In this document: positions 12,140 through 25,253 of the stretch, one piece after another | How the letters are laid out: every line of letters begins with the position of its first letter | Numbering within the stretch: the first letter of the stretch is position 1 | IMG/VR virus record: IMGVR_UViG_3300032286_000926 | Span: 1 to 64,000 of that record | Length of the DNA stretch: 64,000 nt | Direction: 5' to 3' (one strand) | From: a virus | Position numbers and translations under genes: made by a program | Notes under the pieces: generated by a model | The model's input: only the letters and a program-made list of their open reading frames with translations | The model's database searches: none | Told to the model about the DNA's origin: nothing

Positions 12140-12168
12140 TTGACATTTCGATATACCCGTGGTATAAT
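12140..12168 (+). promoter_or_regulatory. Sigma70-type early promoter, apparently leaderless
   Basis: TTGACA (12140-12145), 17-nt spacer, TATAAT (12163-12168). Counting seven bases from the end of the -10 box puts the transcript start on the ATG at 12175. Confidence 0.85.
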
Positions 12169-12174
12169 GGGTGT

Positions 12175-12558
12175 ATGGAAATCATTAAAGAAACTACAAA
12201 ATGGCAAAGTGAATTTGCCGTGCCAAATCATACTTATTTACTTAATAATAAAGGTAGAGTAATTGCCTATTTAAGTGAAAAATCAAATAAAGTATTTCAA
12301 TTAAAATCAGGTTTTATTTTAAATAAGCGTTATCGTACATTTATTAAAAGTAATAATCCTGCATTATCTAAAATAGCAAAATCATTTAAAGAAGTTGATA
12401 TTATTAAACCTAATGTCCGTATTTTCAATGTAAAATCAAAAGATAAAGATTATCGTGTAGAATATGATAATGGTTTAATAACATGTGGTTGTATTGGTTT
12501 TGGTTATCGTGGTAAATGTAAACATGCTGAAGCAGTATCTAAACAATTAGGAATATAA
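12175..12558 (+). CDS. SWIM zinc-finger-like protein
   Basis: A 127-residue basic protein. The C-terminal motif C104-x-C106-x8-C115-x-H117 is the CxCx(n)CxH signature of SWIM zinc fingers, which bind DNA or proteins. The N-terminal 95 residues are beta-rich and lysine-rich without a known fold. The first in-frame ATG coincides with the predicted transcript start, so the mRNA may be leaderless. It heads a unit with the genes at 12560 and 12739. A regulatory or nucleic-acid-binding role is inference. Confidence 0.7.
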   Translation: MEIIKETTKWQSEFAVPNHTYLLNNKGRVIAYLSEKSNKVFQLKSGFILNKRYRTFIKSNNPALSKIAKSFKEVDIIKPNVRIFNVKSKDKDYRVEYDNGLITCGCIGFGYRGKCKHAEAVSKQLGI

Positions 12559-12559
12559 T

Positions 12560-12742
12560 ATGATTAATACAAACTCTTTATATATTGATATTATTGGTGA
12601 ATTAAAAACGATTGATAATAATATTAATATTTTGGCTGACTTAATGGTTAAATTAGAACCAGAATTGGCTGATAAATTATTATTTAATTTAGCTACTGCT
12701 TTTCAAGAAAAACATTATAATACTAAATTAGAAACAGTATGA
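12560..12742 (+). CDS. Hypothetical small helical protein
   Basis: A 60-residue acidic, helix-rich protein (IIGELKTIDNNINILADLMV). It starts one base after the previous stop and overlaps the next gene by four bases. No family recognised. Confidence 0.55.
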   Translation: MINTNSLYIDIIGELKTIDNNINILADLMVKLEPELADKLLFNLATAFQEKHYNTKLETV

Positions 12743-13065
12743 TTATCCACGCACATATTCCCAAAAAGAAAAAGCGTAAATTAACTGCTAAACAAAAGCA
12801 GTTAATAGAATCTTGGGATAATATATTAAAACAATATCCACCCAAAATGGTTAGTAAAAAAACATTCAATTTAAAAGTTACTCCATATAAAAGAGAAACT
12901 CCGCATTATGATTCATTATCTACTAATGATTATACCGCATTTAAAAAGGATAATCAATTCTATACTGGTGATAAAGTAAAAGGTATTGGTACCTTACATA
13001 AATCCAATGCGGTACCCATTTTTACGGATGAGGAAGCGATTGACCAAGCAAACATGCGAAGATAA
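12739..13065 (+). CDS. Conserved phage protein with GDKVKGIGTLHKSNAVPIF motif
   Basis: A 108-residue protein with a basic N-terminus (HIPKKKKRKLTAKQKQ) and a conserved C-terminal motif (about residues 77-108) running through YTGDKVKGIGTLHKSNAVP to EAIDQANMRR. I recognise this C-terminus from many tailed phages, where the function is unknown. The two-part layout, variable basic head and constant tail, is typical of that family. It is the last gene of the unit begun at 12175. Confidence 0.7.
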   Translation: MIIHAHIPKKKKRKLTAKQKQLIESWDNILKQYPPKMVSKKTFNLKVTPYKRETPHYDSLSTNDYTAFKKDNQFYTGDKVKGIGTLHKSNAVPIFTDEEAIDQANMRR

Positions 13066-13096
13066 ACCTTTTTAAATCAATAGGTTACAAGAGGGC

Positions 13097-13124
13097 TTGA
13101 CATTTGCCGTGGTTCGTGTATAAT
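13097..13124 (+). promoter_or_regulatory. Sigma70-type early promoter
   Basis: TTGACA (13097-13102), 16-nt spacer, TATAAT (13119-13124). The downstream GGTTACATAAAATGAAA nearly repeats the sequence after the promoter at 407-435. The upstream GAGGGC is shared with the promoter at 14703. Confidence 0.8.
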
Positions 13125-13153
13125 GGTTACATAAAATGAAAGAAAGAAACTAT

Positions 13154-13528
13154 ATGAATAAATTAATTAATGTATTAAATGAATGTGAATCTATTATCTC
13201 CTCCACCGAGAATATCGAAGAATTAGTTGCTAAAGATTATCTTGATAATCAAGAGTTTTTTATTATTCGACAAAATGCAGAAGAAATACAATCTATTATT
13301 GTTACTTATAATGTAGATAATAATGAATCTTTATTATCCGATGATATTCAAGAAATTGAAGAATTGCGAATTGAAATATATCAAGCCGCCAAATATATTA
13401 GTGAAGATTATCTCGAAAATAAAAACGATGATTATAATAATCTTGACGACCTCGAAAAAGAAGTTGTTAATGAGTTTAAATATATTAAAGATGCTACTGA
13501 TAATATCAGTAATTTATTAATAAAATGA
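13154..13528 (+). CDS. Hypothetical acidic protein
   Basis: A 124-residue, very acidic, helical protein of unknown function (for example ENIEELVAKDYLDNQEFF). The ATG at 13154 is preferred over 13136, which lies about five bases from the predicted transcript start; the equivalent upstream ATG of the 465 gene is also unused. The ribosome site (GAAAGAAA) is weak. A charge this negative in a small early phage protein would suit an anti-host or DNA-mimic role, but that is speculation. Confidence 0.6.
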   Translation: MNKLINVLNECESIISSTENIEELVAKDYLDNQEFFIIRQNAEEIQSIIVTYNVDNNESLLSDDIQEIEELRIEIYQAAKYISEDYLENKNDDYNNLDDLEKEVVNEFKYIKDATDNISNLLIK

Positions 13529-13553
13529 TGTTGTTTTCACACAACACCAGCTG

Positions 13554-13581
13554 TTGACATTTACCTTAAAACCTGTATAAT
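13554..13581 (+). promoter_or_regulatory. Sigma70-type early promoter with upstream palindrome
   Basis: TTGACA (13554-13559), 16-nt spacer, TATAAT (13576-13581). A TGTTGT-N6-ACAACA palindrome (13529-13546) precedes it at the same distance as at 12115-12140. The leader GTTGAGTTGATAAAGAAAG is repeated almost exactly after the promoter at 14703. Confidence 0.85.
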
Positions 13582-13617
13582 GGTTTCTGTTGAGTTGATA
13601 AAGAAAGTGAAAAAATT

Positions 13618-13971
13618 ATGGCGTATATGAATCAAGAAAAAAAAGCGATTATAGCGGCTGCTATGAAACCTGTATTGAAAAAATACAATATGAAAGGCAG
13701 TTTATCTGTCCGTAGCCATTTATCGATTTGTTTAACCGTAAAATCCGGTCCTATCGATTTTGAAGATAAAAAAGGTCATCAGGTTAATGTTTATTGGATT
13801 AAAGACCATTATACTGGTAAAGCCCAAGCGTTTTTATTAGAAGCATTAAATGCTTTGAAGTCAGCTGGTTATTATAATAATACAGACGCTTCAATTGATT
13901 ATTTTGATACTGCTTATTATATGGATATTAATATTGGTAAGTGGAATAAACCTTACATTTTGGAGAAGTGA
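13618..13971 (+). CDS. Conserved phage protein, LPD29-like
   Basis: A 117-residue protein. The sequence MNQEKKAIIAAAMKPVLKKY, then GSLSVRSHLSICLTVKSG and the C-terminal YYMDINIGKWNKPYIL, match a family widespread in tailed phages (LPD29-like, large-polyvalent-protein-associated domain). Function is unknown. It lies behind its own promoter and strong leader and overlaps nothing, with the gene at 13976 following after four bases. Recognition rests on my memory of the family and was not searched. Confidence 0.7.
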   Translation: MAYMNQEKKAIIAAAMKPVLKKYNMKGSLSVRSHLSICLTVKSGPIDFEDKKGHQVNVYWIKDHYTGKAQAFLLEALNALKSAGYYNNTDASIDYFDTAYYMDINIGKWNKPYILEK

Positions 13972-13975
13972 TTAT

Positions 13976-14302
13976 ATGATTTTAGTTATTCGCACACAAT
14001 TTATGGAAAACTATGGCGCCCACGATTGGGACGGTACTGGTGAATGTCCTCAATATTGGAAAATGAAAGGTGGTTCGGAGTATAAAATCACTGGTGTACC
14101 TCTTAATATCGATTATGAGGAAGTGGTATCTGCCGCTGGTGTTGAGTATTCTAATGAAGGTGCTCGTGAGTACATTTTAGATTGGTCGATTGAAGGCGAT
14201 GATTATTTAAGTTGGTTTGAGAAGTCCCAGCTTGATTATGATGGTGTTATTGCTTGTAAAGAGCCAGTTATTGAATATAGTGAATTGGCGGAGAAGGTAT
14301 GA
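13976..14302 (+). CDS. Conserved phage protein with IRTQFMENYGAHDWDG motif
   Basis: A 108-residue acidic protein. The N-terminal IRTQFMENYGAHDWDGTGEC and CPQYWKMKGGSEYK are recognisable from small proteins in diverse tailed phages, function unknown. I chose the ATG at 13976, after GGAG (13962-13965) and just past the previous stop; longer readings run back through that gene. It overlaps the next gene by ATGA. Confidence 0.65.
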   Translation: MILVIRTQFMENYGAHDWDGTGECPQYWKMKGGSEYKITGVPLNIDYEEVVSAAGVEYSNEGAREYILDWSIEGDDYLSWFEKSQLDYDGVIACKEPVIEYSELAEKV

Positions 14303-14472
14303 TTACTGAAAAAATCAAATTAGAATTACAAAAGAAACTGATTGATGCTCAGCATTTATTGGCGGATGTATATGATTATGCTTGCGATAATGATTTAAAC
14401 TCGGTAGAATCTCAAATGAGCTGTGCTGATTCTTGTATTATAGAATGTCTTGATTATTTAAATAAGGTTTAA
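14299..14472 (+). CDS. Hypothetical small protein with four cysteines
   Basis: A 57-residue helical protein containing four cysteines (YACDND, MSCADSCIIEC). The spacing could bind a metal, though no known finger is matched. GAGAAGG precedes the ATG, which overlaps the previous stop. Function unknown. Confidence 0.55.
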   Translation: MITEKIKLELQKKLIDAQHLLADVYDYACDNDLNSVESQMSCADSCIIECLDYLNKV

Positions 14473-14473
14473 T

Positions 14474-14668
14474 ATGAGTGAAGTTTACATTGTAAAATCT
14501 GGTCAGTTAATAGATTTAGTTGGATGGGAATGGGTGAATCTGGCAGTATTCGATAATAACGATGCCGCTGTAGCATTCGCTCGAAATACTGAAAAGCAGA
14601 TAAAACCAGAAGATTTGGACGAAACGGAATCTGTGGAAATCGAGTGTTTTACACTAAAAAGTTGGTAA
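14474..14668 (+). CDS. Hypothetical small protein
   Basis: A 64-residue acidic protein starting MSEVYIVKSGQLIDLVGWEW, one base after the previous stop. A beta-alpha pattern is likely. No family recognised. Confidence 0.55.
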   Translation: MSEVYIVKSGQLIDLVGWEWVNLAVFDNNDAAVAFARNTEKQIKPEDLDETESVEIECFTLKSW

Positions 14669-14702
14669 AAAAAGTCAATGAAATCAACAGCTTACGGAGG
14701 GC

Positions 14703-14730
14703 TTGACATTTGCCAGGAAACGTGTATAAT
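14703..14730 (+). promoter_or_regulatory. Sigma70-type early promoter
   Basis: TTGACA (14703-14708), 16-nt spacer, TATAAT (14725-14730). CTTACGGAGGGC before it matches CTTACGGTGGGC before the promoter at 2432 in 11 of 12 bases. The leader GTTGAGTTGATAAAGAAAG matches that after 13576. Confidence 0.87.
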
Positions 14731-14766
14731 GGTTTATGTTGAGTTGATAAAGAAAGCAGAAAAATT

Positions 14767-15519
14767 ATGAAATTATTAAGTGTTGGTAATCCAAAGATTT
14801 TAAAAGGTTTAAAACAAGGTTTTAATACTTACATTTTACACCTCGCCCCAGCTGACGTATCTGGTTACCAGACTTGTCCAAAAGCTACTGCTGGTTGTAA
14901 GTCTGCTTGTCTTAATACTGCTGGTCGTGGTGGTATGTTTAAAAAAGGCGAGACTACCAATACTATTCAGCAAGCTCGTATTCGTAAAACAAAAATGTTT
15001 TTTGAAAATCGTATAGAATTTATGGCTCAATTAGTTAAAGATATTGAGCTTGGTATTAAGCAGTCAATTAAAAAAGATTTAGTTCCTGTTTTCCGTTTAA
15101 ATGGTACAAGTGATTTATCTTTTGAAAAATATGAGGTTGTCCGTAACGGTGTTTTATATCGTAACATTTTCGATGCTTTTGCTGATATCCAATTCTATGA
15201 TTATACAAAGGTTTTAGGTCGTAAAGTTAATGGTATTAAAAATTACAGTTTGACATTTTCAGCTGCTGATGGTAATGATAATGATGTATCGAAAGCGATT
15301 AATCAAGGTTATAATATTGCTACTGTATTTGGTATTAAAAAGACAGAACCAATGCCTGAATATTATAATGGTTTACCAGTATTTAATGGTGATGAAAGTG
15401 ATTTAAGATTTTTAGACCCTAAAGGTGTTATTGTTGGTTTGTATGCCAAAGGTAAAGCGAAAAAAGATACCTCTGGTTTTGTGAAATATCCTACTATTAT
15501 GTTGAAAATGGCGGCTTAA
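14767..15519 (+). CDS. Phage gene-product-88-like protein (DUF7227-like)
   Basis: A 250-residue protein. Its conserved N-terminal half includes HLAPADVSGYQTCPKAT, TAGCKSACLNTAGRGGMF and IQQARIRKTKMFF, the central part RLNGTSDLSFEKYE and IQFYDYTKVLGR, and the C-terminal part FNGDESDLRFLDPKGVIVGLYAKGKAK. This is the family annotated as gene product 88 in mycobacteriophages and found in many others. Three clustered cysteines (C37, C44, C48 region) may bind metal or a cluster. The biochemical role is not established. It has its own consensus promoter and leader. Confidence 0.8.
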   Translation: MKLLSVGNPKILKGLKQGFNTYILHLAPADVSGYQTCPKATAGCKSACLNTAGRGGMFKKGETTNTIQQARIRKTKMFFENRIEFMAQLVKDIELGIKQSIKKDLVPVFRLNGTSDLSFEKYEVVRNGVLYRNIFDAFADIQFYDYTKVLGRKVNGIKNYSLTFSAADGNDNDVSKAINQGYNIATVFGIKKTEPMPEYYNGLPVFNGDESDLRFLDPKGVIVGLYAKGKAKKDTSGFVKYPTIMLKMAA

Positions 15520-15520
15520 T

Positions 15521-15751
15521 ATGAAATTTACTAGTTATAGAGATAAAGATTTATTTGATACACGGCACGGTGGTGCTTTCGATAGAGGTTCAGCCGATAG
15601 TTATTATAATCGACCTATTGAACCGCATTATTATGTTGACGGTACAGGTACAAGTGAAAAAATTACCGAATTAACCGAAAAACAAGTTGCCGATTATATG
15701 GCTGGTTATGCCTTTAATGAACAATTTGGTGATAAGAAAAGTTGGGATTAA
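15521..15751 (+). CDS. Conserved small phage protein
   Basis: A 76-residue protein. DTRHGGAFDRGSADSYYNR (about 13-31), PHYYVDG and a C-terminal AGYAFNEQFGDKKSW are recognisable from small phage proteins of unknown function. It starts one base after the gene-88-like gene and is probably co-transcribed with it. Confidence 0.7.
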   Translation: MKFTSYRDKDLFDTRHGGAFDRGSADSYYNRPIEPHYYVDGTGTSEKITELTEKQVADYMAGYAFNEQFGDKKSWD

Positions 15752-15871
15752 AAAATGGTTGTAATGGGGACAAGGGCGTTCCTTCTGGCACCATGAGACC
15801 AGTAAAACAAGGCGGGTTAATTTTTGTTGGTAGTTGCAACCTCAAAACCTAAAACCAACCATGAATGTTTT

Positions 15872-15903
15872 GCTAGTTTTAAACTGTAATAATAAAAACT
15901 AGC
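15872..15903 (+). terminator. Possible terminator hairpin in a gene-poor stretch
   Basis: GCTAGTTTT (15872-15880) pairs with AAAACTAGC (15895-15903). No T-run follows on the plus strand. The stretch 15752-15925 holds no other feature I can support. The hairpin may be a weak terminator or part of the leader of the next gene. Confidence 0.4.
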
Positions 15904-15925
15904 ACTAATTTAAAATAGGAATATT

Positions 15926-16141
15926 ATGATTCGCAAAAAACAATATGGTGAAATGCCAGTAATCGATTTGACAGGTCCGCAAGGTAATGCTTTTTATTTG
16001 TTGGGTTACGCAAATAAAAATGCTCGAAAAATTGGTTTAGTCGGTTCGGCAATTGTAGAAGAGATGAAACAAGGCAATTATGAACACCTTGTACAAACCT
16101 TTGATAGATATTTCGGTGATTATGTTATTCTGGAGAGATAA
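15926..16141 (+). CDS. Conserved small phage protein
   Basis: A 71-residue protein with MPVIDLTGPQGNAFYLLGYA (about 10-29), a motif I recall from small phage proteins of unknown function. An AGGAA ribosome site precedes the ATG. It lies behind a gene-poor stretch of about 170 bases, and a promoter follows at 16182. Confidence 0.65.
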   Translation: MIRKKQYGEMPVIDLTGPQGNAFYLLGYANKNARKIGLVGSAIVEEMKQGNYEHLVQTFDRYFGDYVILER

Positions 16142-16181
16142 TGATGAAAAGTTAATATTCGGTAAAGTTGTAAAATCAGGC

Positions 16182-16210
16182 TTGACAAATTCGCCTGGTT
16201 ATGTTATAAT
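16182..16210 (+). promoter_or_regulatory. Sigma70-type early promoter
   Basis: TTGACA (16182-16187), 17-nt spacer, TATAAT (16205-16210), preceded by AGGC as in sister promoters. The leader TTGATAAAAGGA resembles the 13576 and 14725 leaders. Confidence 0.87.
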
Positions 16211-16243
16211 GTTATATCTAAATTGATAAAAGGAATCTATATT

Positions 16244-16687
16244 ATGTCTAAAGCTATTAAACTTGCTCCGTTTCAAAAATTACTTACCGTTATGATTTCA
16301 GGTAAGCCCGTATCACTTGAAGAGATGGATACATTACTTGGTAAAGAGATTTACATGTACCGTATCTCCACTTACATGTGGCACATTAAAGTTAATGCCA
16401 ATGGTGTTATCAAAGCGATTAAAGATGGTCGCAAAGTAACTGGTTACCAGTTGATGAATGTCAAAGAAGTTAAAGAGTACATGAATCGTGCTGGTATTAC
16501 AAATAGCGGCTTTAAAGCTGGCGCAGTTGAGAAGAAACCATCTATCTCAAAACTGGCAGATTTAAAGGCGACACCAGTTGCTAAAAAGACTGCTGTGAAG
16601 CAGACTGTTGTTGAAACTGTTGGGAAACAGGATGTTGTAAGTGATGAAGTGACCGTTACCGAAATTACTGAGACGGTTACTCAATAA
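16244..16687 (+). CDS. Hypothetical protein with lysine-rich hinge and acidic tail
   Basis: A 147-residue protein. Residues 1-80 look globular (FQKLLTVMISGKPVSLEEMD, MYRISTYMWHIKVNANGVIK) and could hold a small winged-helix-like DNA-binding domain. Residues 90-125 are alanine/lysine-rich linker and the end is acidic and threonine-rich. I chose the ATG at 16244, after AAAGGA; 16223 would put the start on the leader. Function unknown. A single-gene unit bounded by a consensus promoter and a strong terminator suggests high expression. Confidence 0.65.
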   Translation: MSKAIKLAPFQKLLTVMISGKPVSLEEMDTLLGKEIYMYRISTYMWHIKVNANGVIKAIKDGRKVTGYQLMNVKEVKEYMNRAGITNSGFKAGAVEKKPSISKLADLKATPVAKKTAVKQTVVETVGKQDVVSDEVTVTEITETVTQ

Positions 16688-16703
16688 AATTAATAATGAT
16701 TTT

Positions 16704-16729
16704 AAGGGGGAGTTTCTCCCCCTTTTTTT
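16704..16729 (+). terminator. Rho-independent terminator
   Basis: AAGGGGGAG (16704-16712), TTT loop, CTCCCCCTT (16716-16724), then further T residues to 16729. Ends the unit of the gene at 16244. Confidence 0.93.
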
Positions 16730-16740
16730 ATTTCTATAAT

Positions 16741-17289
16741 ATGAATATATTTTACCTAGACCATAATCCAATTCATTGTGCAGAAATGCATAATAATAAA
16801 CATGTTGTAAAGATGATACTTGAATATGCTCAATTACTTTCTACCGCACACCGTATTCTTGACGGTGTTCCTACTGTTGGTTTATCTAAGTCTGGTCGCA
16901 AACAACAGCGTTACATTCTCAATGATGAGCGTGAGCAAATTCTTTATTCCGCTACTCATATTCACCACCCTTCAGCTGTGTGGTGCCGACAAAATGATTC
17001 AAACTATATTTGGTTAAGTAAACTATTATTGGCTTGTTGTAAAGAATATACCTATCGTTATGGTAAAGTTCATAAGTGTGAAGAAAGTGGATTAGTTAAA
17101 CAGTTATTTTGGAATCCACCAAAGAACATACCTCATGGTGACTTTACACAACCTACACCTGCCATGCCAGATGAGGTAAAAATTGCAGGAGATTCTTTGG
17201 CATCCTATCGTAACTACTATATACTTAATAAGACACATTTAGCTAATTGGAAGAAAAGGGAAGTACCAAGTTGGTATAAAACAATATGA
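16741..17289 (+). CDS. Conserved phage protein, HNKHVVKM-motif
   Basis: A 182-residue protein. MNIFYLDHNPIHCAEMHNNK (1-20), HVVKMILEYAQLLSTAHR and HHPSAVWCRQNDSNYIWL are conserved features I associate with T4-like marine phages. The layout of short histidine-rich motifs around a helical core loosely recalls pyrimidine-dimer glycosylase-type (Pyr_excise) proteins, but I cannot confirm that relation. I chose the ATG at 16741; an upstream ATG at 16696 would start inside the terminator. It overlaps the heme oxygenase gene by ATGA. Confidence 0.6.
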   Translation: MNIFYLDHNPIHCAEMHNNKHVVKMILEYAQLLSTAHRILDGVPTVGLSKSGRKQQRYILNDEREQILYSATHIHHPSAVWCRQNDSNYIWLSKLLLACCKEYTYRYGKVHKCEESGLVKQLFWNPPKNIPHGDFTQPTPAMPDEVKIAGDSLASYRNYYILNKTHLANWKKREVPSWYKTI

Positions 17290-17849
17290 CAGTATTAAGA
17301 GATATTACAAACGATAAACACCGAGAGGTTGAAAATACCGAGCTCGTCAAATATCTGTTTAAAGGCGAAGTGAAAAAAGAAGTGTATGTAAGTTATTTGT
17401 ATGAATTATTACATATCTATACGGTTCTGGAAGAACTGGCAAAGAAAACTGGTGCATTAGAAGGTCTTGATGGTATCGAAAGAACACAAGCAATCCGTGA
17501 TGATTTGGATGAATTGAATCCTTTATATGAACGAGATATTACCGAATCAACCAGAAAATATTTAAATTATATTGAAGATTTGGCCGCAGATGAAAATCAC
17601 AAACACTTGATTATGGCACATGTATATTGCCGACATATGGGTGATTTGTTTGGTGGTAAATTACTTGCTCGATTAGCCCCAGGTGAAGGTAGAGCATATC
17701 AATTTGATGATAGGCCGGCTTTGATTAAGGCATTTAGTGCCAAAGTAACCGAAGATTTAGGTGATGAAGCTAATATTTCATTCGGACATTTTATTAATAT
17801 TTTTAATGACCTCTGGCAGGTTATAAAGGTTGAAAATGCCGACATATGA
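17286..17849 (+). CDS. Heme oxygenase
   Basis: A 187-residue all-helical protein of the HO-1 family, which opens heme to biliverdin, CO and Fe(II) using reduced ferredoxin or another reductase. The proximal heme ligand is H12 (NDKHREVEN), and the distal helix has GDLFGGKLLARL (119-130) with the glycines that pack on the heme. Length is close to bacterial enzymes (about 200). Cyanophages use heme oxygenase for bilin synthesis; without other bilin genes here, iron or heme handling is equally possible. It overlaps both neighbours, so it is fixed in the operon rather than a recent insertion. Confidence 0.9.
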   Translation: MTVLRDITNDKHREVENTELVKYLFKGEVKKEVYVSYLYELLHIYTVLEELAKKTGALEGLDGIERTQAIRDDLDELNPLYERDITESTRKYLNYIEDLAADENHKHLIMAHVYCRHMGDLFGGKLLARLAPGEGRAYQFDDRPALIKAFSAKVTEDLGDEANISFGHFINIFNDLWQVIKVENADI

Positions 17850-18162
17850 GTTTCTAGATACCGAGACTGATGAAATTTTTGAAGCTGTTATGAAATGGTC
17901 AGAGCGTGAGGAGTTTCTAAAAGAGAATCCACAATATCAACCATTATTATCGGCACCTAATATTGTTTCTGGTGTTTCTACATCAAAACAGAATCGTGTA
18001 CCTGATGGATTTAAAGAAGTTCTATCTAAGATTTCCGAAAATAATAAGTATGGTCATATTGCAGAGAAACATGGTAAGCGAGGCATCAAAGAAGCCAAAG
18101 TTGCCGATGTAATTAAGAAACACGTAGATAGAGTATCAAAACGAGAAGCGAATAAGAAATGA
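17836..18162 (+). CDS. Hypothetical protein with FmdB-like start but no cysteines
   Basis: A 108-residue protein. MPTYEFLDTETDEIFEAVMKWSER resembles the start of FmdB-type zinc-ribbon regulators, but all cysteine positions are replaced, so no zinc site is possible. The C-terminal 50 residues are basic and helical (KHGKRGIKEAKVADVIKKHV). Such proteins occur in T4-like marine phages without known function. Start at ATG 17836, inside the heme oxygenase gene; an upstream TTG at 17830 is less likely. It overlaps the nuclease gene by four bases. Confidence 0.6.
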   Translation: MPTYEFLDTETDEIFEAVMKWSEREEFLKENPQYQPLLSAPNIVSGVSTSKQNRVPDGFKEVLSKISENNKYGHIAEKHGKRGIKEAKVADVIKKHVDRVSKREANKK

Positions 18163-18845
18163 TTTTTAACCATATTAAACTACCACAATTACAATTTGAT
18201 TTGGTATCGGAAACAACCGAAACTGGTAGAAAATATGTTTTACCTGATGGTCGTAAATATGATTCTGTTACCACCATTCTATCTCATGCCAAAGATAAGA
18301 CATTCTTAAATGAATGGCGTGCTAGGATTGGTGAGGAAGAGGCCAATCGAATTGTTAGAAGGTCGACAAGTCGTGGTACTAAACTACATGATGCTTGTGA
18401 GAAATATCTGAAAAATGAATTGTCGGATATGAAAATTAAAACATTGATGCCTGATGTTAAAGATTTCTTCCTACAATTAAAACCAATCATTGATAAAAAT
18501 GTTGGTGTTGTATATGGTACTGAGCAGGCTCTTTTTAGTGATAGATTAAAAATTGCAGGTCGTACCGATTGTATTGCAGAATGGGCTAATAAAATATCCA
18601 TTGTGGATTATAAAAACTCCATTAAAGAAAAGCGTGAAGATTGGATTCAAGATTATTTCATTCAATGTACCGCATATGCAAACCTGTTCGAAGATTTAAC
18701 TGGTTTGCCAATTGAACAGATTGTGGTACTAATAGCAAATGAAGAGGGTACACCTCAGGTATTTGTGAGGGAAAAGACTAAATACCAACCTCAATTTGAT
18801 AAACTTGTGGATGATTACCGCAAATCACTAGAAATTGTAGTATAA
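18159..18845 (+). CDS. PD-(D/E)XK exonuclease (RecB-like)
   Basis: A 228-residue nuclease. Active-site order fits the RecB/mitochondrial-exonuclease-like branch: H77 in KLHDACEKYL, E122, D137 in GRTD (134-137), D150-Y-K152 (IVDYKNS) and QCTAYA (169-174), the motif IV helix. It probably degrades DNA ends, for example host DNA or recombination intermediates. Similar genes occur in T4-like marine phages. It overlaps the previous gene by ATGA, and two tiny membrane-protein genes follow. Confidence 0.8.
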   Translation: MIFNHIKLPQLQFDLVSETTETGRKYVLPDGRKYDSVTTILSHAKDKTFLNEWRARIGEEEANRIVRRSTSRGTKLHDACEKYLKNELSDMKIKTLMPDVKDFFLQLKPIIDKNVGVVYGTEQALFSDRLKIAGRTDCIAEWANKISIVDYKNSIKEKREDWIQDYFIQCTAYANLFEDLTGLPIEQIVVLIANEEGTPQVFVREKTKYQPQFDKLVDDYRKSLEIVV

Positions 18846-18853
18846 TAGAATAT

Positions 18854-18979
18854 ATGAAAAATAAACATTGGAAAAAACTCTGTACACCAGAGCAAAACGA
18901 AAGACAAACGGCAGCATTAATATTGCTTGCCACATTTCTTACAGGTTTGTTTGTTACATGGTTACTTTTTGGAAATTAA
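18854..18979 (+). CDS. Small single-pass membrane protein
   Basis: A 41-residue protein with a charged N-terminal half and one membrane segment (ALILLATFLTGLFVTWLLF, residues 21-39). A TATAAT at 18841-18846 lies seven bases before the ATG but no good -35 box is visible. Function unknown; paired with the next tiny gene. Confidence 0.5.
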   Translation: MKNKHWKKLCTPEQNERQTAALILLATFLTGLFVTWLLFGN

Positions 18980-18980
18980 T

Positions 18981-19091
18981 ATGTCAAATAAAGATTGTGT
19001 TAAAAAACATAAAATGAGAAGTTTTCGATTTTATATTGGTGCGTGTATATTTGCAACAATAGTAATGACAATACTTTTTATTATAAACTAA
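18981..19091 (+). CDS. Small single-pass membrane protein
   Basis: A 36-residue protein with a basic N-terminus (KHKMRSFR) and one membrane segment (FYIGACIFATIVMTILFII). It starts one base after the previous stop and ends directly before the tmRNA acceptor piece. Function unknown. Confidence 0.5.
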   Translation: MSNKDCVKKHKMRSFRFYIGACIFATIVMTILFIIN

Positions 19092-19151
19092 TTCGTTGAA
19101 GTTTTTAGAAAGTTGTTTTGGACGTGGGTTCGATTCCCACCACCTCCACCA
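19092..19151 (+). ncRNA. ssrA: Permuted tmRNA, acceptor piece (3' tRNA-like part)
   Basis: The gene order is swapped: the piece that forms the 3' end of tmRNA comes first. It contains the T-stem GTGGG (19124-19128), T-loop TTCGATT, CCCAC (19136-19140), acceptor strand CACCTCC (19141-19147), discriminator A and encoded CCA (19149-19151). GGACG before the T-stem matches the E. coli tmRNA at the same place. CACCTCC pairs fully with GGGGGTG at 19213-19219, giving a G3-U70 wobble, the alanine identity element. The 5' end is not certain. Confidence 0.88.
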
Positions 19152-19212
19152 AAAGTATATTGACGAACCGAGTTATCGGTAGCAAACATGAAAGTGGCAA
19201 TATACTTCTGAT
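19152..19212 (+). other. Intervening segment of the permuted tmRNA
   Basis: The 61 nt between the CCA end and the coding piece contain a perfect 10-bp inverted repeat, AAGTATATTG (19153-19162) and CAATATACTT (19198-19207). It would extend the acceptor stem into one continuous helix in the precursor. In known two-piece tmRNAs this loop is removed by RNA processing. Confidence 0.75.
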
Positions 19213-19405
19213 GGGGGTGACCTGGTTTCGACAGGACATACAAGTATAAAAATGGAGAATCGTCAAAGCTAAAGACGTTAGGATTGAGGACACTCGGTCG
19301 AAGAAGCAAATTAAATTAAACGCAAACGATAATAAGTTCGCATTAGCAGCCTAAACACTGCTTAGGGTTTTGATGGGTTGACCTCGTAACAGAATAACCC
19401 ATCAC
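19213..19405 (+). ncRNA. ssrA: Permuted tmRNA, coding piece
   Basis: It starts GGGGGTGACCTGGTTTCGACAGG, the conserved tmRNA 5' signature (acceptor stem and D-like loop). The tag frame follows at 19322-19354, then the hairpins CCTAA/TTAGG (19350-19354 with 19362-19366) and GATGGGTT/AACCCATC (19372-19379 with 19396-19403). The overall order acceptor piece, loop, coding piece matches the permuted genes known in Alphaproteobacteria, some Cyanobacteria and some Betaproteobacteria. The 3' end is estimated. Confidence 0.9.
19322..19354 (+). other. tmRNA proteolysis tag reading frame ANDNKFALAA
   Basis: The codons read GCA AAC GAT AAT AAG TTC GCA TTA GCA GCC TAA. With the alanine carried by the tmRNA, the full tag would be AANDNKFALAA. 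It begins AND and ends in LAA like proteobacterial tags such as the E. coli ANDENYALAA, and LAA is the ClpX recognition end. Confidence 0.93.
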
Positions 19406-19421
19406 AACAATAGGAGAAATT

Positions 19422-19976
19422 ATGCGAAGTATTCCAATACTTTTAAGCATCTTAATATCGTCATCAATTTTGGTATTTTGCTTTACAAGTACCACAAGCA
19501 ACATCTATAATGTACCAGTTAAAGTTCGGTATCAAGAATTGTCCAAACCATTACAAAAACAAATTGATTGTTTGGCACAAAATATTTACTATGAAGCTGG
19601 ACACGAATCAAAAGAAGGGCAAATTGCCGTAGCAATGGTTACCTTAAATCGGTTATCTACAGGTTTCTATGCCCATGATATTTGCGGTGTAGTTAAACAG
19701 AAAACCAATGGTACCTGCCAGTTCTCATGGGTATGTGTTACTGGCGGCTTGACAAACGTACACAATCTGTTGTATAATGATATTAGACAATTAGCAGTAA
19801 ACGTTGTTATGAATTATGATGTTATTCGTGATAATACCCACGGTGCAACATACTACCATGCCGATTATGTTAATCCAAATTGGGGATTACCAAAGACAAC
19901 ACAAATTGGTCGGCATATTTTTTACAAACACCACAGAGATGTGGCCAATATTAATAAGGAAATTAAATATGAATGA
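19422..19976 (+). CDS. SleB-type cell wall hydrolase (endolysin) with N-terminal membrane anchor
   Basis: A 184-residue protein. Residues 4-22 are hydrophobic (IPILLSILISSSILVFCF) and could be a signal-arrest-release anchor or a signal peptide. The catalytic Hydrolase_2 (SleB) domain runs from about 47: CLAQNIYYEAGHESKEGQIAV with the conserved glutamates near E58 and E62, then GTCQFSWVC and a C-terminal GATYYHADYVNPNW with IGRHIFYK. SleB enzymes cut peptidoglycan glycan strands. As the only lysis-type enzyme outside the tail, it is the likely endolysin. The following gene encodes a small membrane protein. An embedded promoter lies at 19749-19778. Confidence 0.85.
   Translation: MRSIPILLSILISSSILVFCFTSTTSNIYNVPVKVRYQELSKPLQKQIDCLAQNIYYEAGHESKEGQIAVAMVTLNRLSTGFYAHDICGVVKQKTNGTCQFSWVCVTGGLTNVHNLLYNDIRQLAVNVVMNYDVIRDNTHGATYYHADYVNPNWGLPKTTQIGRHIFYKHHRDVANINKEIKYE
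19749..19778 (+). promoter_or_regulatory. Promoter inside the endolysin gene
   Basis: TTGACA (19749-19754), 18-nt spacer, TATAAT (19773-19778), preceded by GGC as in the other early promoters. Downstream are the small membrane protein, dsbA, 33 and 59 genes, which could therefore be read early. Confidence 0.65.
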
Positions 19977-20214
19977 AGTGAAAAAAACTATTGAATCAAT
20001 GTCTTTCGTTGTTTCGGTTGCATTGGTTGTTATTTCAATTGTCATCGGTGTAACATATTACAATGTTAGTGACCGTAAATTGATGAGTGCAAATATCGAT
20101 TCAGCAATCGCTAAGGGTATTGATCCAATTTCAGTTCGTTGCTCTTTCGCACAAAGCGGAGATACAATTTGTGTAGCACATGCAGCTTCTATGGGTTCAT
20201 CAGGTCGTAAATAA
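19969..20214 (+). CDS. Small membrane protein, possible holin
   Basis: An 81-residue protein with one strong membrane segment (residues 12-30, SFVVSVALVVISIVIGVTY) followed by a soluble part with two cysteines. AAGGAA precedes the ATG, which lies inside the endolysin gene. Position and topology fit a pinholin or antiholin-type protein, but there is no sequence motif to prove it. It could equally be an unrelated small membrane protein. Confidence 0.5.
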   Translation: MNEVKKTIESMSFVVSVALVVISIVIGVTYYNVSDRKLMSANIDSAIAKGIDPISVRCSFAQSGDTICVAHAASMGSSGRK

Positions 20215-20228
20215 AAAGGAAATATATT

Positions 20229-20501
20229 ATGGCAGTTCAGCAATTGAGTATTAACAAGATTACAAGTGAAGCAGACCAAAAGAAACTCTTGGATTGTTTG
20301 CGTGAGTGTTCAGCTTCAATGACACGAATGGAAGGTGAGAGTGATTACATTAAAGAATCTATCGCAACCGTATCCAAAAACTTGCAGTTACCTAAAAAAT
20401 TGGTTTCTAGGTTGGTTAAAGTTTATCATAAACAAAACTATGATGAAGAAGTAGCTACCCATGAACAATTTGAAACCCTATATGAAACGATTGTGAAATA
20501 A
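20229..20501 (+). CDS. dsbA: DsbA-like double-stranded DNA-binding late-transcription protein
   Basis: A 90-residue helical protein, against 89 in T4 DsbA. The C-terminal region, LVSRLVKVYHKQNYDEEVA then FETLYETIVK, aligns with T4 LYHKDNRDVFEAETEE and ELYDTV by eye. T4 DsbA binds near late promoters and assists late transcription. The gene sits directly upstream of a gp33-like gene (20844), another late-transcription factor. AAGGAA precedes the ATG. Confidence 0.8.
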   Translation: MAVQQLSINKITSEADQKKLLDCLRECSASMTRMEGESDYIKESIATVSKNLQLPKKLVSRLVKVYHKQNYDEEVATHEQFETLYETIVK

Positions 20502-20502
20502 T

Positions 20503-20844
20503 ATGAGTAAATTTACATTTATTAAAGAAGATGGTGTTTATTGTACCAATTCAAAACAGACAGTAGAATTTTCAGCTGTAAGTCTCGAAGAAGTATTGAA
20601 ACAATTTGAATCCTTTTTACGAGGCGCTGGTTTTGTATTTAATGGTGAAGTGGGTATTTTTGAAGAAGAAGATTACCAATCAAATTATGATTACGATTAT
20701 GATTTCAGTAATCTACCACAAAATAATTGGCCTTTTGGTTCACAAACAGAATTGGTAGGAAAATGTCCAGTTTGCAAGCTTGATAATGAGACTATGGAAT
20801 TTCATAAATGTTATGATATAAATTGTCCAAAGGATGTGTTATAA
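20503..20844 (+). CDS. Hypothetical protein with C-terminal zinc-binding motif
   Basis: A 113-residue acidic protein. The first 60 residues are beta-rich (FTFIKEDGVYCTN). A tyrosine/aspartate-rich stretch (YQSNYDYDYDFSNL) follows, and the end has CPVCKLDNETMEFHKCYDINCP, a likely Cys-rich metal site. It begins one base after dsbA and overlaps the start of the gp33-like gene by one base. Function unknown; similar proteins accompany gp33 in T4-like marine phages. Confidence 0.65.
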   Translation: MSKFTFIKEDGVYCTNSKQTVEFSAVSLEEVLKQFESFLRGAGFVFNGEVGIFEEEDYQSNYDYDYDFSNLPQNNWPFGSQTELVGKCPVCKLDNETMEFHKCYDINCPKDVL

Positions 20845-21068
20845 TGCCAACCAAAGATGAGATGAAGAAGTTTTCGTTTGCAATTGATTCAATGGTCGCA
20901 AATACTGATTACACTTATCTTGAAGCAATCGTGGAATACTGTAAGACTACAGGCCTCGAAATTGAAGTGGCGGCATCCTTAATCAACGCCAATCTGAAAA
21001 CAAAGATTGAAGGACAAGCCATGGACCTTAACCTTTTGAAAGAGAAAACCAACAAGTTACCCATATGA
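20844..21068 (+). CDS. 33: gp33-like late promoter co-activator
   Basis: A 74-residue helical protein, shorter than T4 gp33 (112). YTYLEAIVEYCKTTGLEIEVA and ASLINANLKTKIEGQAM are the family core; the hydrophobic C-terminal region (LNLLKEKTNKLPI) would contact the sliding clamp. gp33 bridges gp55-bound RNA polymerase to the gp45 clamp. Start at ATG 20844 with AGGA upstream; an in-frame ATG at 20823 is inside the previous gene. It overlaps the gp59 gene by four bases. Confidence 0.8.
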   Translation: MPTKDEMKKFSFAIDSMVANTDYTYLEAIVEYCKTTGLEIEVAASLINANLKTKIEGQAMDLNLLKEKTNKLPI

Positions 21069-21679
21069 TTACTGGTTATGAAGCATTCAGTTTATTTCAA
21101 GCATTAAAATTACATTTTACATCCGATTCTTACGATTTCTTTAAGTACAACGGTAAGAGTAAAGTTTCAGTAGATGCTTTTGAGAACCGTAAAGACAAGT
21201 ACCATTTTTATAAGTTGTCTCGCAGATTACCGAATCGTGATGAATTGATTATGTTCATTGTGGCTAACTTTTTGAATAATGAAAACCTTTGGGTAGGTGA
21301 TTTATTGTCTGAAGAATCGGAAACTATTTACCGTGAAAGACAACGGGTAATTCAGAGTTTATCTTATATCTTTGAAAATGATTGTAAAGTTATCTTTGAA
21401 GATTGTAAAGATCCTAATGAAGTATTGTCAAGTTCTGGAGACTATCCAAGACTGTTAACGATGGCTTTACGCAAAGAGATATCGATAGAGACAATAACCA
21501 TCCTAAACGCAATCCTACAATTCTTACCGATGTGGAATAAAAAGATTACCGATACAATACGATGGCCAATTTACCAAAGAAAACTGGCTAAGTATTCGGA
21601 GTTTTTACCCAAAGATATGAATAGGTTTAAATTAATATTGAAGAAAGTGATAAATGAAAATCAAAAAGTTATATCTTGA
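21065..21679 (+). CDS. 59: gp59-like DNA helicase loader
   Basis: A 204-residue protein, against 217 in T4 gp59. The N-terminal half (FSLFQALKLHFTSDSYDFFKY, then ENRKDKYHFYKLSRRL) matches the T4 KLYLMIKQHMNG and RRDKYFFQKLSEK regions by eye, and ENLWVGDLLSEES matches QDAWIGDISDAD. gp59 loads the gp41 helicase on forked DNA coated with gp32 (22236). It overlaps the next gene by 26 bases. Confidence 0.85.
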   Translation: MITGYEAFSLFQALKLHFTSDSYDFFKYNGKSKVSVDAFENRKDKYHFYKLSRRLPNRDELIMFIVANFLNNENLWVGDLLSEESETIYRERQRVIQSLSYIFENDCKVIFEDCKDPNEVLSSSGDYPRLLTMALRKEISIETITILNAILQFLPMWNKKITDTIRWPIYQRKLAKYSEFLPKDMNRFKLILKKVINENQKVIS

Positions 21680-22160
21680 TATGGATGGCGTAATTGCCAA
21701 CTTTGAGAAAAGATATATCGAATTATTCAAAGAACCACCTGGTGGTTTAAATCGTGACCGTAAAGAGTTTAGTAAAAATTGGGAAGTGTTTATTCAAGAT
21801 AAACATTTTGAAACTCTTGATTGGTGGCCAGGAGCTTGTGAATTAATTTCATATATTCAAAAGAATTTTTCACATGATACCGTGGAAATACTTACCTCAT
21901 CTGGCGGTAACAAATACCATAGTGAGGTAGAAGTTCAAAAAAATATTTGGATTAAAAAAATGAATCTTTCCGAACAATGGAAAGTCAATGTGGTAGCAGG
22001 AAGAAAATTAAAAGCGGAGTTTGCTACTCCAGATAGCGTCTTAATTGATGATACCTTAGATGTTATCGAAGCTTTCAATAAAGCAGGTGGAATAGGTATT
22101 CATCACAAAGATTACGGCAATACTATCATGTTGCTGGATATCTTGCTTGCAAATGACTAA
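21654..22160 (+). CDS. HAD-family 5'(3')-deoxyribonucleotidase-like protein
   Basis: A 168-residue protein. YLDMDGVIANFEKRY (7-21) contains the DxDGV catalytic motif with the aspartate nucleophile. WWPGACELI marks the cap-helix region, ILTSSGG is motif II, and LIDDTLDVIEAFNKAGG carries the C-terminal acidic motif. This layout fits small deoxyribonucleotidases, which strip phosphates from dNMPs. It could tune nucleotide pools, but the exact substrate is not shown. It overlaps gp59 by 26 bases and is followed by the gp32 promoter. Confidence 0.8.
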   Translation: MKIKKLYLDMDGVIANFEKRYIELFKEPPGGLNRDRKEFSKNWEVFIQDKHFETLDWWPGACELISYIQKNFSHDTVEILTSSGGNKYHSEVEVQKNIWIKKMNLSEQWKVNVVAGRKLKAEFATPDSVLIDDTLDVIEAFNKAGGIGIHHKDYGNTIMLLDILLAND

Positions 22161-22175
22161 ATACTATGATATAAT
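22147..22175 (+). promoter_or_regulatory. Promoter of gene 32
   Basis: TTGCAA (22147-22152), 17-nt spacer, TATAAT (22170-22175). It overlaps the end of the nucleotidase gene and leaves a leader of about 54 nt before gene 32. CGTTTATA occurs twice in that leader, once beside the AAGGAG site. Confidence 0.75.
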
Positions 22176-22235
22176 GCATATAGTGGATAAGTCGTTTATA
22201 CATCGTTAATATACCGTTTATAAGGAGTAACAAAT

Positions 22236-23135
22236 ATGAGTAGCTTTGCTAATCTCAAGCGTAACAAGAGTTCATTCGATAAACTCACAAAGGCTATTGA
22301 AGCCACCACACAACCTGCTGAGGCAGGATCCAAAGAAGATACCCGTTTCTGGCAACCTGAAGTAGATAAATCAGGTAATGGCATGGCCGTTATCCGTTTC
22401 CTTGCAGCTCCCGCTGTTGATGGTGATGATGCTCTTCCATGGGTTCGTATCTTCTCACATGGATTCCAAGCACAAGGCGGTTGGTTAATCGATAACTGCT
22501 TAACAACTCTTGATGGTGCTAAGTGTCCAGTATGTGACCACAATTCAACTTTGTGGAACTCTGGCATCGAAGCCAATAAAGAGATTGTTCGCAAACAGAA
22601 GCGTAAATTGAATTACATCGCCAATGTGTTAATCGTTTCTGACCCTAAACATCCAGAAAACGAAGGTCAAGTCAAATTATTTAAATTTGGCAAAAAGATT
22701 TTCGATAAGATTTCTGAAGCTATGAATCCAGAATTTCCGGATGAGAAGCCAGTTAATCCTTTTGATTTCTGGGAAGGTGCCAACTTCAAGTTAAAGATTC
22801 GTAATGTTGAAGGCTATCGTAACTATGATAAGTCTGAGTTTGAATCTGCTGAACCACTATTAGGTGGTGATGATGATAAACTTGAGGAACTCTGGAAGAA
22901 AGAGCATTCTCTGAAAGAGTTTTTGGATGCTAAGAACTTTAAACCATACGACCAATTGAAATCTCGCCTAGATAAGGTATTAGGTTTCTCAGGTTCTGTG
23001 GCAATCAAGTCCAAAGCGGAAGATATTCTAGCACCGTCTAGAGTAGAAGAAGATGTGCCATTCGATACATCTTCAAAGTCTGCGGGTAGTGATGATGATT
23101 TGGATTATTTCAAGTCATTAGCTGAAACAGACTAA
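22236..23135 (+). CDS. 32: gp32 single-stranded DNA-binding protein
   Basis: A 299-residue protein, against 301 in T4 gp32. The N-terminal basic LAST-type motif LKRNKSS (7-13) supports cooperative binding. The OB fold has zinc ligands H75, C88, C97 and C100 (FSHGF, then DNCLTTLDGAKCPVC). The C-terminal tail is acidic (SDDDLDYFKSLAETD) as in gp32, where it binds replication partners such as gp59, encoded upstream. A strong AAGGAG site lies before the ATG, as expected for an abundant protein. In T4 the leader is an autoregulatory site; here I cannot show a pseudoknot. Confidence 0.95.
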   Translation: MSSFANLKRNKSSFDKLTKAIEATTQPAEAGSKEDTRFWQPEVDKSGNGMAVIRFLAAPAVDGDDALPWVRIFSHGFQAQGGWLIDNCLTTLDGAKCPVCDHNSTLWNSGIEANKEIVRKQKRKLNYIANVLIVSDPKHPENEGQVKLFKFGKKIFDKISEAMNPEFPDEKPVNPFDFWEGANFKLKIRNVEGYRNYDKSEFESAEPLLGGDDDKLEELWKKEHSLKEFLDAKNFKPYDQLKSRLDKVLGFSGSVAIKSKAEDILAPSRVEEDVPFDTSSKSAGSDDDLDYFKSLAETD

Positions 23136-23156
23136 TAAAAATCCCATGCATGTAGA

Positions 23157-23182
23157 ATACCCGCTTCGGCGGGTATTTTTTT
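23157..23182. terminator. Terminator between convergent transcription units
   Basis: ATACCCGC (23157-23164), TTCG tetraloop, GCGGGTAT (23169-23176) and six Ts (23177-23182). It ends gene 32 transcription, and the minus-strand gene ends immediately on its other side. On the minus strand the hairpin lacks a long T-run, so it may be mainly a plus-strand terminator. Confidence 0.95.
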
Positions 23183-25253
23183 ATCCTATTGCTCGTTCCA
23201 CTAGTAACTTAGCTAATTCGGTATCAATAACACCTGATGCAGGTAAACTAATTTGGCCCCCACCACCGGTAGTGCTGTTTGAGGTTCTTGCATCAATATT
23301 AATTGGCGCAGAACTACCTGCATTGCGAGAATTATTTATTTGTTGAGAACCTTGATTTATTTGTGCGCCAGTTTTTGCAAAAGGAGATACTATTCCCTCA
23401 AATACTGATTTTGTTCCTTGAAATGTGGATTTTGAAGATCCATCCGAAGCTGCAACTGTCGCAGAACCATTACCATATTCTTTTAATGCCGAGTTGGCAT
23501 ATGCCATACGAGATTGTTCAACTGTTTTAGGCCTCTCATAATATTTACCAAAATTAAATGCGGCCTCTTCAGCTGTATTAGAAGAACGCAACATAGCACC
23601 CGCTTTACTTTCTTTGTTACTCATTTCATGCATTATGAAATCTAATTGAGTATTAACATCACTAATTTCTTTTCCTCTAGAACTAGCAAATTGAGCCAAA
23701 TCTTGTAAACGAGATCCTCTCCATTGAGCAAGTCCGTAAGCACCTTCTGGCTTATTATGTGCGCCACTATTTAAAGTTGATTCTTGTACCAAATTACCAA
23801 CTACACCAGCAGCTTGTGCAGGACTTAAACCCTTTGATACCAAATAATCAACAGCAGCTTTTGTGCTAATACTTTTGCCTTTAGGAAGATCCATGTGAGC
23901 ACCGGTTGCATTGAAACCATTTGACCCGGAAGGTGATGTACTAGTTGGAGATGATGCTCCCGGCATACCATAATAATTTGGTGTATTATTAATTTTTAAA
24001 TCGATGCCAGCACCACTCATCATCTCCTCTAAAGACATATTTTTTGATTGTTTTTCTGTTTGCGTTTCTTCTTTTGTGGGTGAATTGCTTTGTTTTTCAT
24101 CTTCACCCGTAAATTCTTTCCACCAACCATATAGTTCCCAGGCCAGAACCGCACTACCTAATATATTAATTGCGGTCCAAATCCAACCAGGTCCTGGAAC
24201 GGCAAGTCCAGCGCCGGCAGATAATAATCGTAAACCTATCTTAGCATATAATTTGGGTGCTTTTCGTTCTAAAAATGCTAAGAATCGAGTCCATCTTGAA
24301 GTTGGTGCTTTTGCGTATCGACCTGTTTTGGGATCTCTATATTGTTCTTTTGGTGTTGATGGTGCTGTTTTCGGTGTTGGTGTTGAGTAACCACCCATCG
24401 ATGAACCAACAGCTAAACCTGTAGCTGCTACAGCTGCACCCCCAAGACCAGAAGATTCCTCATCATCACCACCCGAAAACATATTATAGAGTCCTAAACC
24501 AATACCAGCGACACCAAGACCCCTGAAAACTTTTCCAACACCACCAGCACCTTTTTTACCCCTAATACCACCACCCGTTGATGAGACACCACCAAAACCA
24601 AAAAGTTTTTTGGCCAAAAATGCAAGGCCAGCAACTACCAAATTTATTGATGTTTTAATTGCAATAATACCAGCCAACAATATTGCGGATCCATACATAA
24701 TATTTTTCTTTACATCTTTCCAACCTTCTTCACCAAAAACAGTTCGGCCAAATTTTCCAATCATATCAAAAATGCCATTTCTAAACTCGGCACTAGTAAA
24801 GAATTTTCCAATACCATAAAGTATACCGGCAATTAAACCACCTTTGATTAACATGTTGGTTAAACCACCAGCAATTATTGCATTTAAGAAATCGTTTGCT
24901 TGGCCAAAAAATCCTTTACCATCTTTTTTATCACCTGTTTTTGTAGGTGATTTAGATGTTTTGGCTGCCATTTGAGATTCATACGATTTTTCTCGGTCAG
25001 AAGAGGATAAGAAGAATCGGTCAGCTTTATCTCTTTGAGTGCCACCAGCAATCTTAACCAATTTTAAAATGCCTTGTTTCATCACATTAATATCACGCAT
25101 TATTATAGGCAAGGCCATACTGTTGCGGCCAATGACATCCAAGCTACTTGTCAATTGAGAAGTATTTTCAGTATCCATCAAAGAAGAACTGTTACTAGAC
25201 TTAGCTCTTCTTTTGGTTTTTTTAAATTGTTTAAGAACGCTTGCAAATGGCAT
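23181..25253 (-). CDS. Tape measure-like protein with C-terminal phage tail lysozyme domain
   Basis: A 690-residue protein. Basic N-terminus (VLKQFKKTKRRAKSS), then several hydrophobic helices between about residues 125 and 385 (for example ILYGIGKFF, IMYGSAILLAGIIAI, WIWTAINILGSAVLAW), as seen in tape measure proteins. Residues about 460-585 form a phage tail lysozyme domain: GLSPAQAAGVVGNLVQES with the catalytic glutamate region, GAYGLAQWRGSRLQDL, then TQLDFIMHEM. It lies directly after the tail assembly chaperone and its frameshift extension, the usual place of the tape measure gene. At 690 residues it would set a tail of roughly 100 nm, compatible with T4 (gp29, 590 residues). It could instead be a separate hub lysozyme; I favour the tape measure. 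Confidence 0.7.
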   Translation of the reverse strand: MPFASVLKQFKKTKRRAKSSNSSSLMDTENTSQLTSSLDVIGRNSMALPIIMRDINVMKQGILKLVKIAGGTQRDKADRFFLSSSDREKSYESQMAAKTSKSPTKTGDKKDGKGFFGQANDFLNAIIAGGLTNMLIKGGLIAGILYGIGKFFTSAEFRNGIFDMIGKFGRTVFGEEGWKDVKKNIMYGSAILLAGIIAIKTSINLVVAGLAFLAKKLFGFGGVSSTGGGIRGKKGAGGVGKVFRGLGVAGIGLGLYNMFSGGDDEESSGLGGAAVAATGLAVGSSMGGYSTPTPKTAPSTPKEQYRDPKTGRYAKAPTSRWTRFLAFLERKAPKLYAKIGLRLLSAGAGLAVPGPGWIWTAINILGSAVLAWELYGWWKEFTGEDEKQSNSPTKEETQTEKQSKNMSLEEMMSGAGIDLKINNTPNYYGMPGASSPTSTSPSGSNGFNATGAHMDLPKGKSISTKAAVDYLVSKGLSPAQAAGVVGNLVQESTLNSGAHNKPEGAYGLAQWRGSRLQDLAQFASSRGKEISDVNTQLDFIMHEMSNKESKAGAMLRSSNTAEEAAFNFGKYYERPKTVEQSRMAYANSALKEYGNGSATVAASDGSSKSTFQGTKSVFEGIVSPFAKTGAQINQGSQQINNSRNAGSSAPINIDARTSNSTTGGGGQISLPASGVIDTELAKLLVERAIG

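Follow-up and report, generated by a model that had tools for sequence, protein, structure and literature searches.

A beta-type permuted tmRNA gene in a T4-like phage, and candidate protein genes nested in the tmRNA spacers of related phages

The tmRNA is an RNA that rescues stuck ribosomes. For its two-piece form, an RNase P step is established, as are 3' trimming, charging by AlaRS, delivery by SmpB and EF-Tu, and proteolysis of the tagged chains. Among 18,146 phages, 402 were found to carry a tmRNA, amounting to 133 unique structures, of which 53 are two-piece and 50 of these aquatic (PMC9004378; Buchholz et al. 2022). They include the T4-like phage Melnitz, with a two-piece tmRNA upstream of the late-transcription coactivator, and 17 of the 47 contigs in the Melnitz cluster have a tmRNA (PMC9004378). 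A list of 79 phage tmRNAs has also been published, and it was there that the permuted family model, RF04321, was built (PMC11915505). In Methylophilales phage Melnitz EXVC044M (MZ577097), the order is PDDEXK nuclease, two ORFs, tmRNA, late-transcription coactivator, gp59, thyX and gp32; the tmRNA is best matched by alpha_tmRNA, has a 142-nt spacer, encodes the tag ANDNYVPVDYALAA and is followed just downstream by a glutamine riboswitch. Pelagibacter phage HTVC008M (NC_020484) has an unannotated permuted tmRNA at 145161-145370 (90.6 bits; tag ANFNEYALAA), also best matched by alpha_tmRNA; here, the order is exonuclease, one ORF, tmRNA and late promoter factor, with gp59 at the opposite end of the linear record.

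The stretch of DNA analysed here, 64,000 nucleotides long and called the window, belongs to an IMG/VR virus record of 103,458 bases that is probably partial. The T4-type core genes of this record comprise gp32, gp59, portal, tail sheath, major head protein and a DsbA-like regulator, and the major head protein is ~63% identical to those of P-TIM40 (cyanophages), Melnitz and HTVC008M: the phage is T4-like (Kyanoviridae-like), as an earlier note on this DNA had recognized from the surrounding gene cluster. The window presents, in order, a PDDEXK exonuclease, two small ORFs, the tmRNA, an endolysin, the DsbA-like regulator, gp59, a nucleotidase and gp32 (Table 1). As in Melnitz, the tmRNA occupies a same-strand slot flanked by the PDDEXK nuclease on one side and by the coactivator, gp59 and gp32 on the other; unlike that of Melnitz, it is of beta type, has a 61-nt spacer and no riboswitch match by Rfam, and is separated from the coactivator by the endolysin. 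HTVC008M shares both the slot and a nearly identical 3' hairpin loop (CCTCGTAACAGAA), but differs in its best model and its tag. Two genes upstream of the exonuclease lies a heme oxygenase (17286-17849; PF01126, E=2.2e-20), and three tail-region genes at 52101-58759 consist of repeats resembling RCC1 (regulator of chromosome condensation).

Table 1. Features of the tmRNA locus in window coordinates
Feature	Position	Strand	Evidence
PDDEXK exonuclease, left slot border	18159..18845	+	phrog_298 E=3.2e-69; PF12705
36-aa hydrophobic ORF, immediately upstream of tmRNA	18981..19091	+	64.5% identity over 31 aa in L009
Whole permuted tmRNA (ssrA) gene, predicted ends	19091..19404	+	RF04321, RF01850, ARAGORN tmRNA*
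Helix joining CCA piece to coding piece, 5' strand	19114..19120	+	partner 19232-19238; consensus fold
T-arm GTGGG-TTCGATT-CCCAC	19124..19140	+	5/5 pairs
3' acceptor strand (19141-19147), A73 (19148), encoded CCA (19149-19151)	19141..19151	+	7/7 pairs with 19213-19219
Spacer, 61 nt, presumably removed	19152..19212	+	10-bp stem 19153-19162 / 19198-19207
5' acceptor strand; coding piece predicted to begin at 19213 after RNase P cleavage	19213..19219	+	pairing
Helix joining the pieces, 3' strand	19232..19238	+	partner 19114-19120
Tag frame ANDNKFALAA and stop; resume codon GCA 19322-19324	19322..19354	+	sequence, ARAGORN
3'-terminal hairpin GATGGGTT / AACCCATC, loop motif CCTCGTAAC	19372..19403	+	fold
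Cell wall hydrolase/endolysin, downstream neighbour	19422..19976	+	PF07486 E=3.1e-20; phrog_938
DsbA-like late-transcription regulator, right slot border	20229..20501	+	PF11126 E=8.2e-12; phrog_639
gp59 helicase loader	21065..21679	+	PF08993/PF08994
gp32 ssDNA-binding protein, synteny anchor	22236..23135	+	PF08804 E=1.7e-46

The earlier note had described a permuted, two-piece tmRNA with the tag ANDNKFALAA and fully paired acceptor strands that keep the G3-U70 pair, and had called for a covariance-model run. That run bears the description out, and every element it named is in place: tmRNA_permuted (RF04321) matches 19091-19354 with 124.2 bits (E=7.9e-24; gathering threshold 47), beta_tmRNA (RF01850), the top model of its clan here, matches 19051-19404 with 106.5 bits (E=2e-31; gathering threshold 84), and ARAGORN calls a permuted tmRNA with the same tag on the forward strand. 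A scan of 18600-19900 with Rfam found no further family close to threshold. Folded as a single strand, the gene reaches -91.4 kcal/mol; the figure for shuffles is -69.3 (z=-4.7), and none of 100 matched the gene in stability. By Rfam, ARAGORN and folding, it is far above chance. The CCA-bearing half lies 5' of the tag-coding half, which begins GGGGGTGACCTGGTTTCGACAGG; the two form the acceptor stem, in which U70 at 19145 faces G3 at 19215 to give the alanine identity pair, and the tag is in frame and closed by a stop. One point needs refining, the start of the CCA piece, placed at 19124 by the earlier note: the model begins at 19091 and the helix joining the two pieces uses 19114-19120, so the RNA with the CCA has to begin well upstream of 19124. 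The mature ends of both pieces are predictions of the models.

The fold is conserved by compensatory change. The alignment comprises 28 sequences, the window gene and 27 relatives drawn from IMG/VR and from cultured phages. As the structure was derived from this same alignment, the percentages of paired cells are inflated, a bias that does not produce double changes: in all, 29 pairs in four helices are paired in 98.5% of cells, and 19 of them have changes on both sides; for the interpiece helix, 6 of 7 pairs are changed on both sides (98.5% of cells paired), for the T-arm 3 of 5 (100%) and for the spacer stem 7 of 10 (96.8%). The acceptor stem, the strands of which would belong to different mature RNAs, has compensatory changes at 3 of 7 pairs, and U70-G3 is kept in 28 of 28 sequences. 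The covariation score is 0.549, compared with 0.174 when the 3' letters are shuffled and 0.047-0.113 when the partners are slid. Additionally, the GCAAA(C/T) context of the resume codon and the TGG-TTCGAC context are kept in the aligned relatives. The tags differ among phages and are mostly of the form AND..[FY]ALAA; that of the window gene ends in ALAA.

The genomic slot is conserved too. In 50 IMG/VR records picked by gp32 similarity alone, RF04321 matched in 20, with 19 above the cut-off; a tmRNA was present at 12 of 16 gp32-anchored loci with at least 6 kb of upstream sequence, and at 20 of 32 with at least 4 kb. All 18 tmRNAs called by ARAGORN at such loci precede gp32 by 2.7-5.5 kb and share its strand. 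The gene is frequent in this group, but neither universal nor essential; in S-CREM1, the coactivator directly follows the exonuclease with no tmRNA match, leaving the slot empty. A tmRNA of this kind in a T4-like phage had been thought unusual in the earlier note, a judgement that does not hold, as the same slot is filled in Melnitz (PMC9004378), in HTVC008M and in numerous IMG/VR relatives. Phage two-piece tmRNAs being already known, the window gene is a further, beta-type case of them, and it defines the conserved position at which they sit in T4-like genomes. ATAAATA late-promoter-like sites are absent from 9901-23332 of the window, which has 15 in total against 42 expected; their absence would be compatible, weakly, with early or middle expression of the tmRNA.

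The best-matching tmRNA model is beta_tmRNA for the window gene and most of its gp32-clade relatives, alpha_tmRNA for Melnitz and HTVC008M, and cyano_tmRNA for S-CAM1; one slot, therefore, holds RNAs of different types. The window gene resembles the betaproteobacterial two-piece tmRNA (RF01850) in that this is its best older family model, in its tag ending and in the conserved 3' hairpin loop, which fits the beta_tmRNA model and has close variants in the relatives. However, most of the chromosomal members found score 157-331 bits, well beyond the window gene, and the bacterial two-piece spacers that we read are 30-33 nt, about half the length of that in the window. A search for the host by tag found no genome contig encoding ANDNKFALAA exactly, and a search by tmRNA pattern gave one Herbaspirillum locus with an odd tag, which is uninformative. 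BLAST of the window tmRNA against 200 Pseudomonadota matched through the T-arm/acceptor patch alone, several of the matches being one-piece genes. Of 300 genomes sampled from the Herbaspirillum order, only 13 exceeded the beta_tmRNA cut-off, so most genomes of this order appear to have other tmRNA forms. Herbaspirillum sp. YR522 (L138) has a beta-type permuted tmRNA with the tag ANEPQFVAYGT, the only tmRNA_beta match in its genome.

In our view, the phage very likely bears a functional permuted tmRNA gene of beta type at 19091-19404, and the most likely role of this gene is to stop ribosomes from being tied up in the course of infection. A single precursor would be transcribed, wherein the T-arm/acceptor fold and the spacer stem would place 19151 beside 19213; host RNase P would then generate the 5' end at G19213 and 3' trimming would expose the encoded CCA at 19151, with loss of the spacer, and the two pieces would be held together by the acceptor stem and the interpiece helix. 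Charging by host AlaRS would proceed via G3-U70. No SmpB was found in the phage record (103 kb and probably partial, hence a weak result alone) or in 49 relatives, three of them longer than 160 kb, and host SmpB is, therefore, presumably used: together with EF-Tu of the host, it would carry the charged RNA to stalled ribosomes, where the tag would mark the nascent chain for host proteases, presumably ClpXP. Ribosomes would thereby be kept free while host mRNA is destroyed.

An unlikely alternative, put forward for Melnitz (PMC9004378), is that the main use of the RNA is to tag selected host proteins for degradation, with their amino acids being recycled. The degradation-type tag is intact in the window gene, which would fit such a use, but it is of an ordinary type, and the sequence favours no selective targets; moreover, trans-translation is not known to select proteins. 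It is very improbable that the RNA is a decoy that binds SmpB or AlaRS and blocks trans-translation in the host, in the way shown for the tag-less tRNA-like RNA of mycobacteriophage DS6A: phage inhibitors of this sort do exist (cited in PMC4131195 and PMC11915505), but the DS6A RNA is little beyond a tRNA-like domain, whereas the window gene and its relatives retain the tag frame with its stop, the CCA, G3-U70 and the terminal hairpin. That the gene is a non-functional passenger or integration relic acquired from a host ssrA gene, a common integration target (PMC11915505), is scarcely credible and largely refuted, given a complete gene, no tyrosine integrase in 12 records, a conserved slot and strong covariation over divergent phages.

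Of greater weight than the window gene itself are relatives in which the spacer, the part of a stable RNA gene that is discarded, holds a protein gene (hereafter, cargo). In one gp32-anchored relative (L048, 1-497), a 171-nt spacer contains a Shine-Dalgarno-led ORF of 52 aa, the UGA of which lies one base before the coding piece. A protein search with no motif selection extended this family to 34 and then 40 loci, about half of them nested in a tmRNA spacer and others just upstream of a permuted tmRNA; at L252, L254 and L243, the tmRNA has a different ORF in its own spacer and a member of the 52-aa family upstream. The 51-52 aa protein (KLKELQENLAKDLV...) is found in the spacers of L048, L183-L195, L200, L201, L208, L232-L234 and L251, and has no relatives in 50,697 phage records. 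In the gp32-anchored set, one of ~20 tmRNAs has a nested gene; two motif scans, with at least 120 matches each, select for the motif and so yield no frequency. Together with the loci from the other searches, at least 184 distinct permuted tmRNAs were collected, at least 96 of which have a spacer of 110 nt or more, and 87 of these 96 long spacers contain an ORF of 25 aa or more led by a Shine-Dalgarno sequence, in 44 sequence families. Pfam identifies thioredoxin (E=4e-21), DUF2061 (3.5e-20) and PGDYG (3.4e-6) among the cargo, and HNH just below the cut-off; acetyltransferase-like and ADP-ribosyltransferase-like labels for other cargo are guesses. Unrelated proteins (HNH-like, thioredoxin, DUF2061, PGDYG and orphans) occupy the same spacer position at L338, L370, L315/L373, L313, L209/L213/L215, L318, L252, L354 and others.

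Among the tmRNAs collected, 37 of 49 representatives show no stop between the Shine-Dalgarno-led start and the last 15 nt of the spacer, whereas dinucleotide shuffles would lead one to expect 1.1 (sd 1.0); the representatives include motif-fetched ones, such that the start is partly selected for, but the openness is not. In every cargo family compared, pN/pS lies between 0.00 and 0.41 (near relatives; raw proportions with no saturation correction), indicating constraint at the protein level. Cargo in bacterial tmRNA genes was considered and rejected, the 27-base motif being absent from all 399 Pseudomonadota genomes.

The architecture is shared across unrelated cargo. The Shine-Dalgarno sequence sits within the spacer stem, and the stop usually falls one base before the coding piece. 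For the spacer stem in the tmRNAs collected, 89.2% of 12 × 44 pair cells are paired, compared with 80.2% when the arms are exchanged (z=8.7); positions 7 and 11 show alternative pairs. Of 22 families among these tmRNAs that end at a UGA one base before the coding piece, 19 end in Ser-Leu, whatever the protein, because the 3' arm of the stem, which provides the last codons, complements the Shine-Dalgarno sequence; free-standing relatives of the 52-aa family mostly have PKE-like tails instead. Melnitz gene 85, located directly upstream of the Melnitz tmRNA, is 70% identical to one of the nested families but has a different end. Simple tolerance of insertions in a spacer that is discarded would account for the presence of cargo, but accounts less well for this shared architecture.

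We favour, with good confidence, the reading that the spacer is a recurrent site for nested genes, in which the Shine-Dalgarno sequence forms the 5' arm and the last codons the 3' arm of the stem, such that translation and folding of the pre-tmRNA would be mutually exclusive, and excision would free a mini-mRNA ending just past the stop. Translation of the cargo could take place during transcription of the precursor; after synthesis of the 3' arm, the ribosome-binding site would be shut within the stem and the RNA would mature to tmRNA. If so, expression of a phage protein would be tied to tmRNA maturation via a ribosome-binding site in the processing stem, which would give a reason for many phages retaining the permuted form. 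The window gene would then be a cargo-less member: many relatives have a Shine-Dalgarno-led ORF filling the spacer, and its 61 nt have none. The window spacer was also considered as a coding segment and rejected, as it offers just one 29-aa TTG frame with no Shine-Dalgarno sequence; so too were the two small ORFs upstream of the tmRNA as cargo that had moved out, as they are nested in none of the fetched relatives.

The tmRNA genes with group I introns and homing endonucleases resemble the cargo-bearing relatives in having an extra gene in a part that is removed from the RNA; there, the introns lie in the T-loop and the gene is an endonuclease (PMC11915505), whereas here the host is the permutation spacer, the proteins are small and diverse, and there is no intron. 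In the open papers searched, the two tmRNA database papers and the Melnitz paper among them, we found no description of nested spacer genes. In L196 (1440-1700), a cargo ORF is framed by what appears to be decayed acceptor sequence, and an intact permuted tmRNA lies downstream of it, an arrangement that suggests duplication and decay as a possible way in or out for cargo. The Melnitz spacer (L131 5985-6437; MZ577097 45984-46436) contains an unannotated, Shine-Dalgarno-led frame of 54 aa that extends 42 nt into the coding piece. Permuted tmRNAs also occur near tRNAs, in Stenotrophomonas phage Marzo (L132, MZ326868 71025-71277) and Alcaligenes phage QDWS595 (L134, OK149171 55063-55316).
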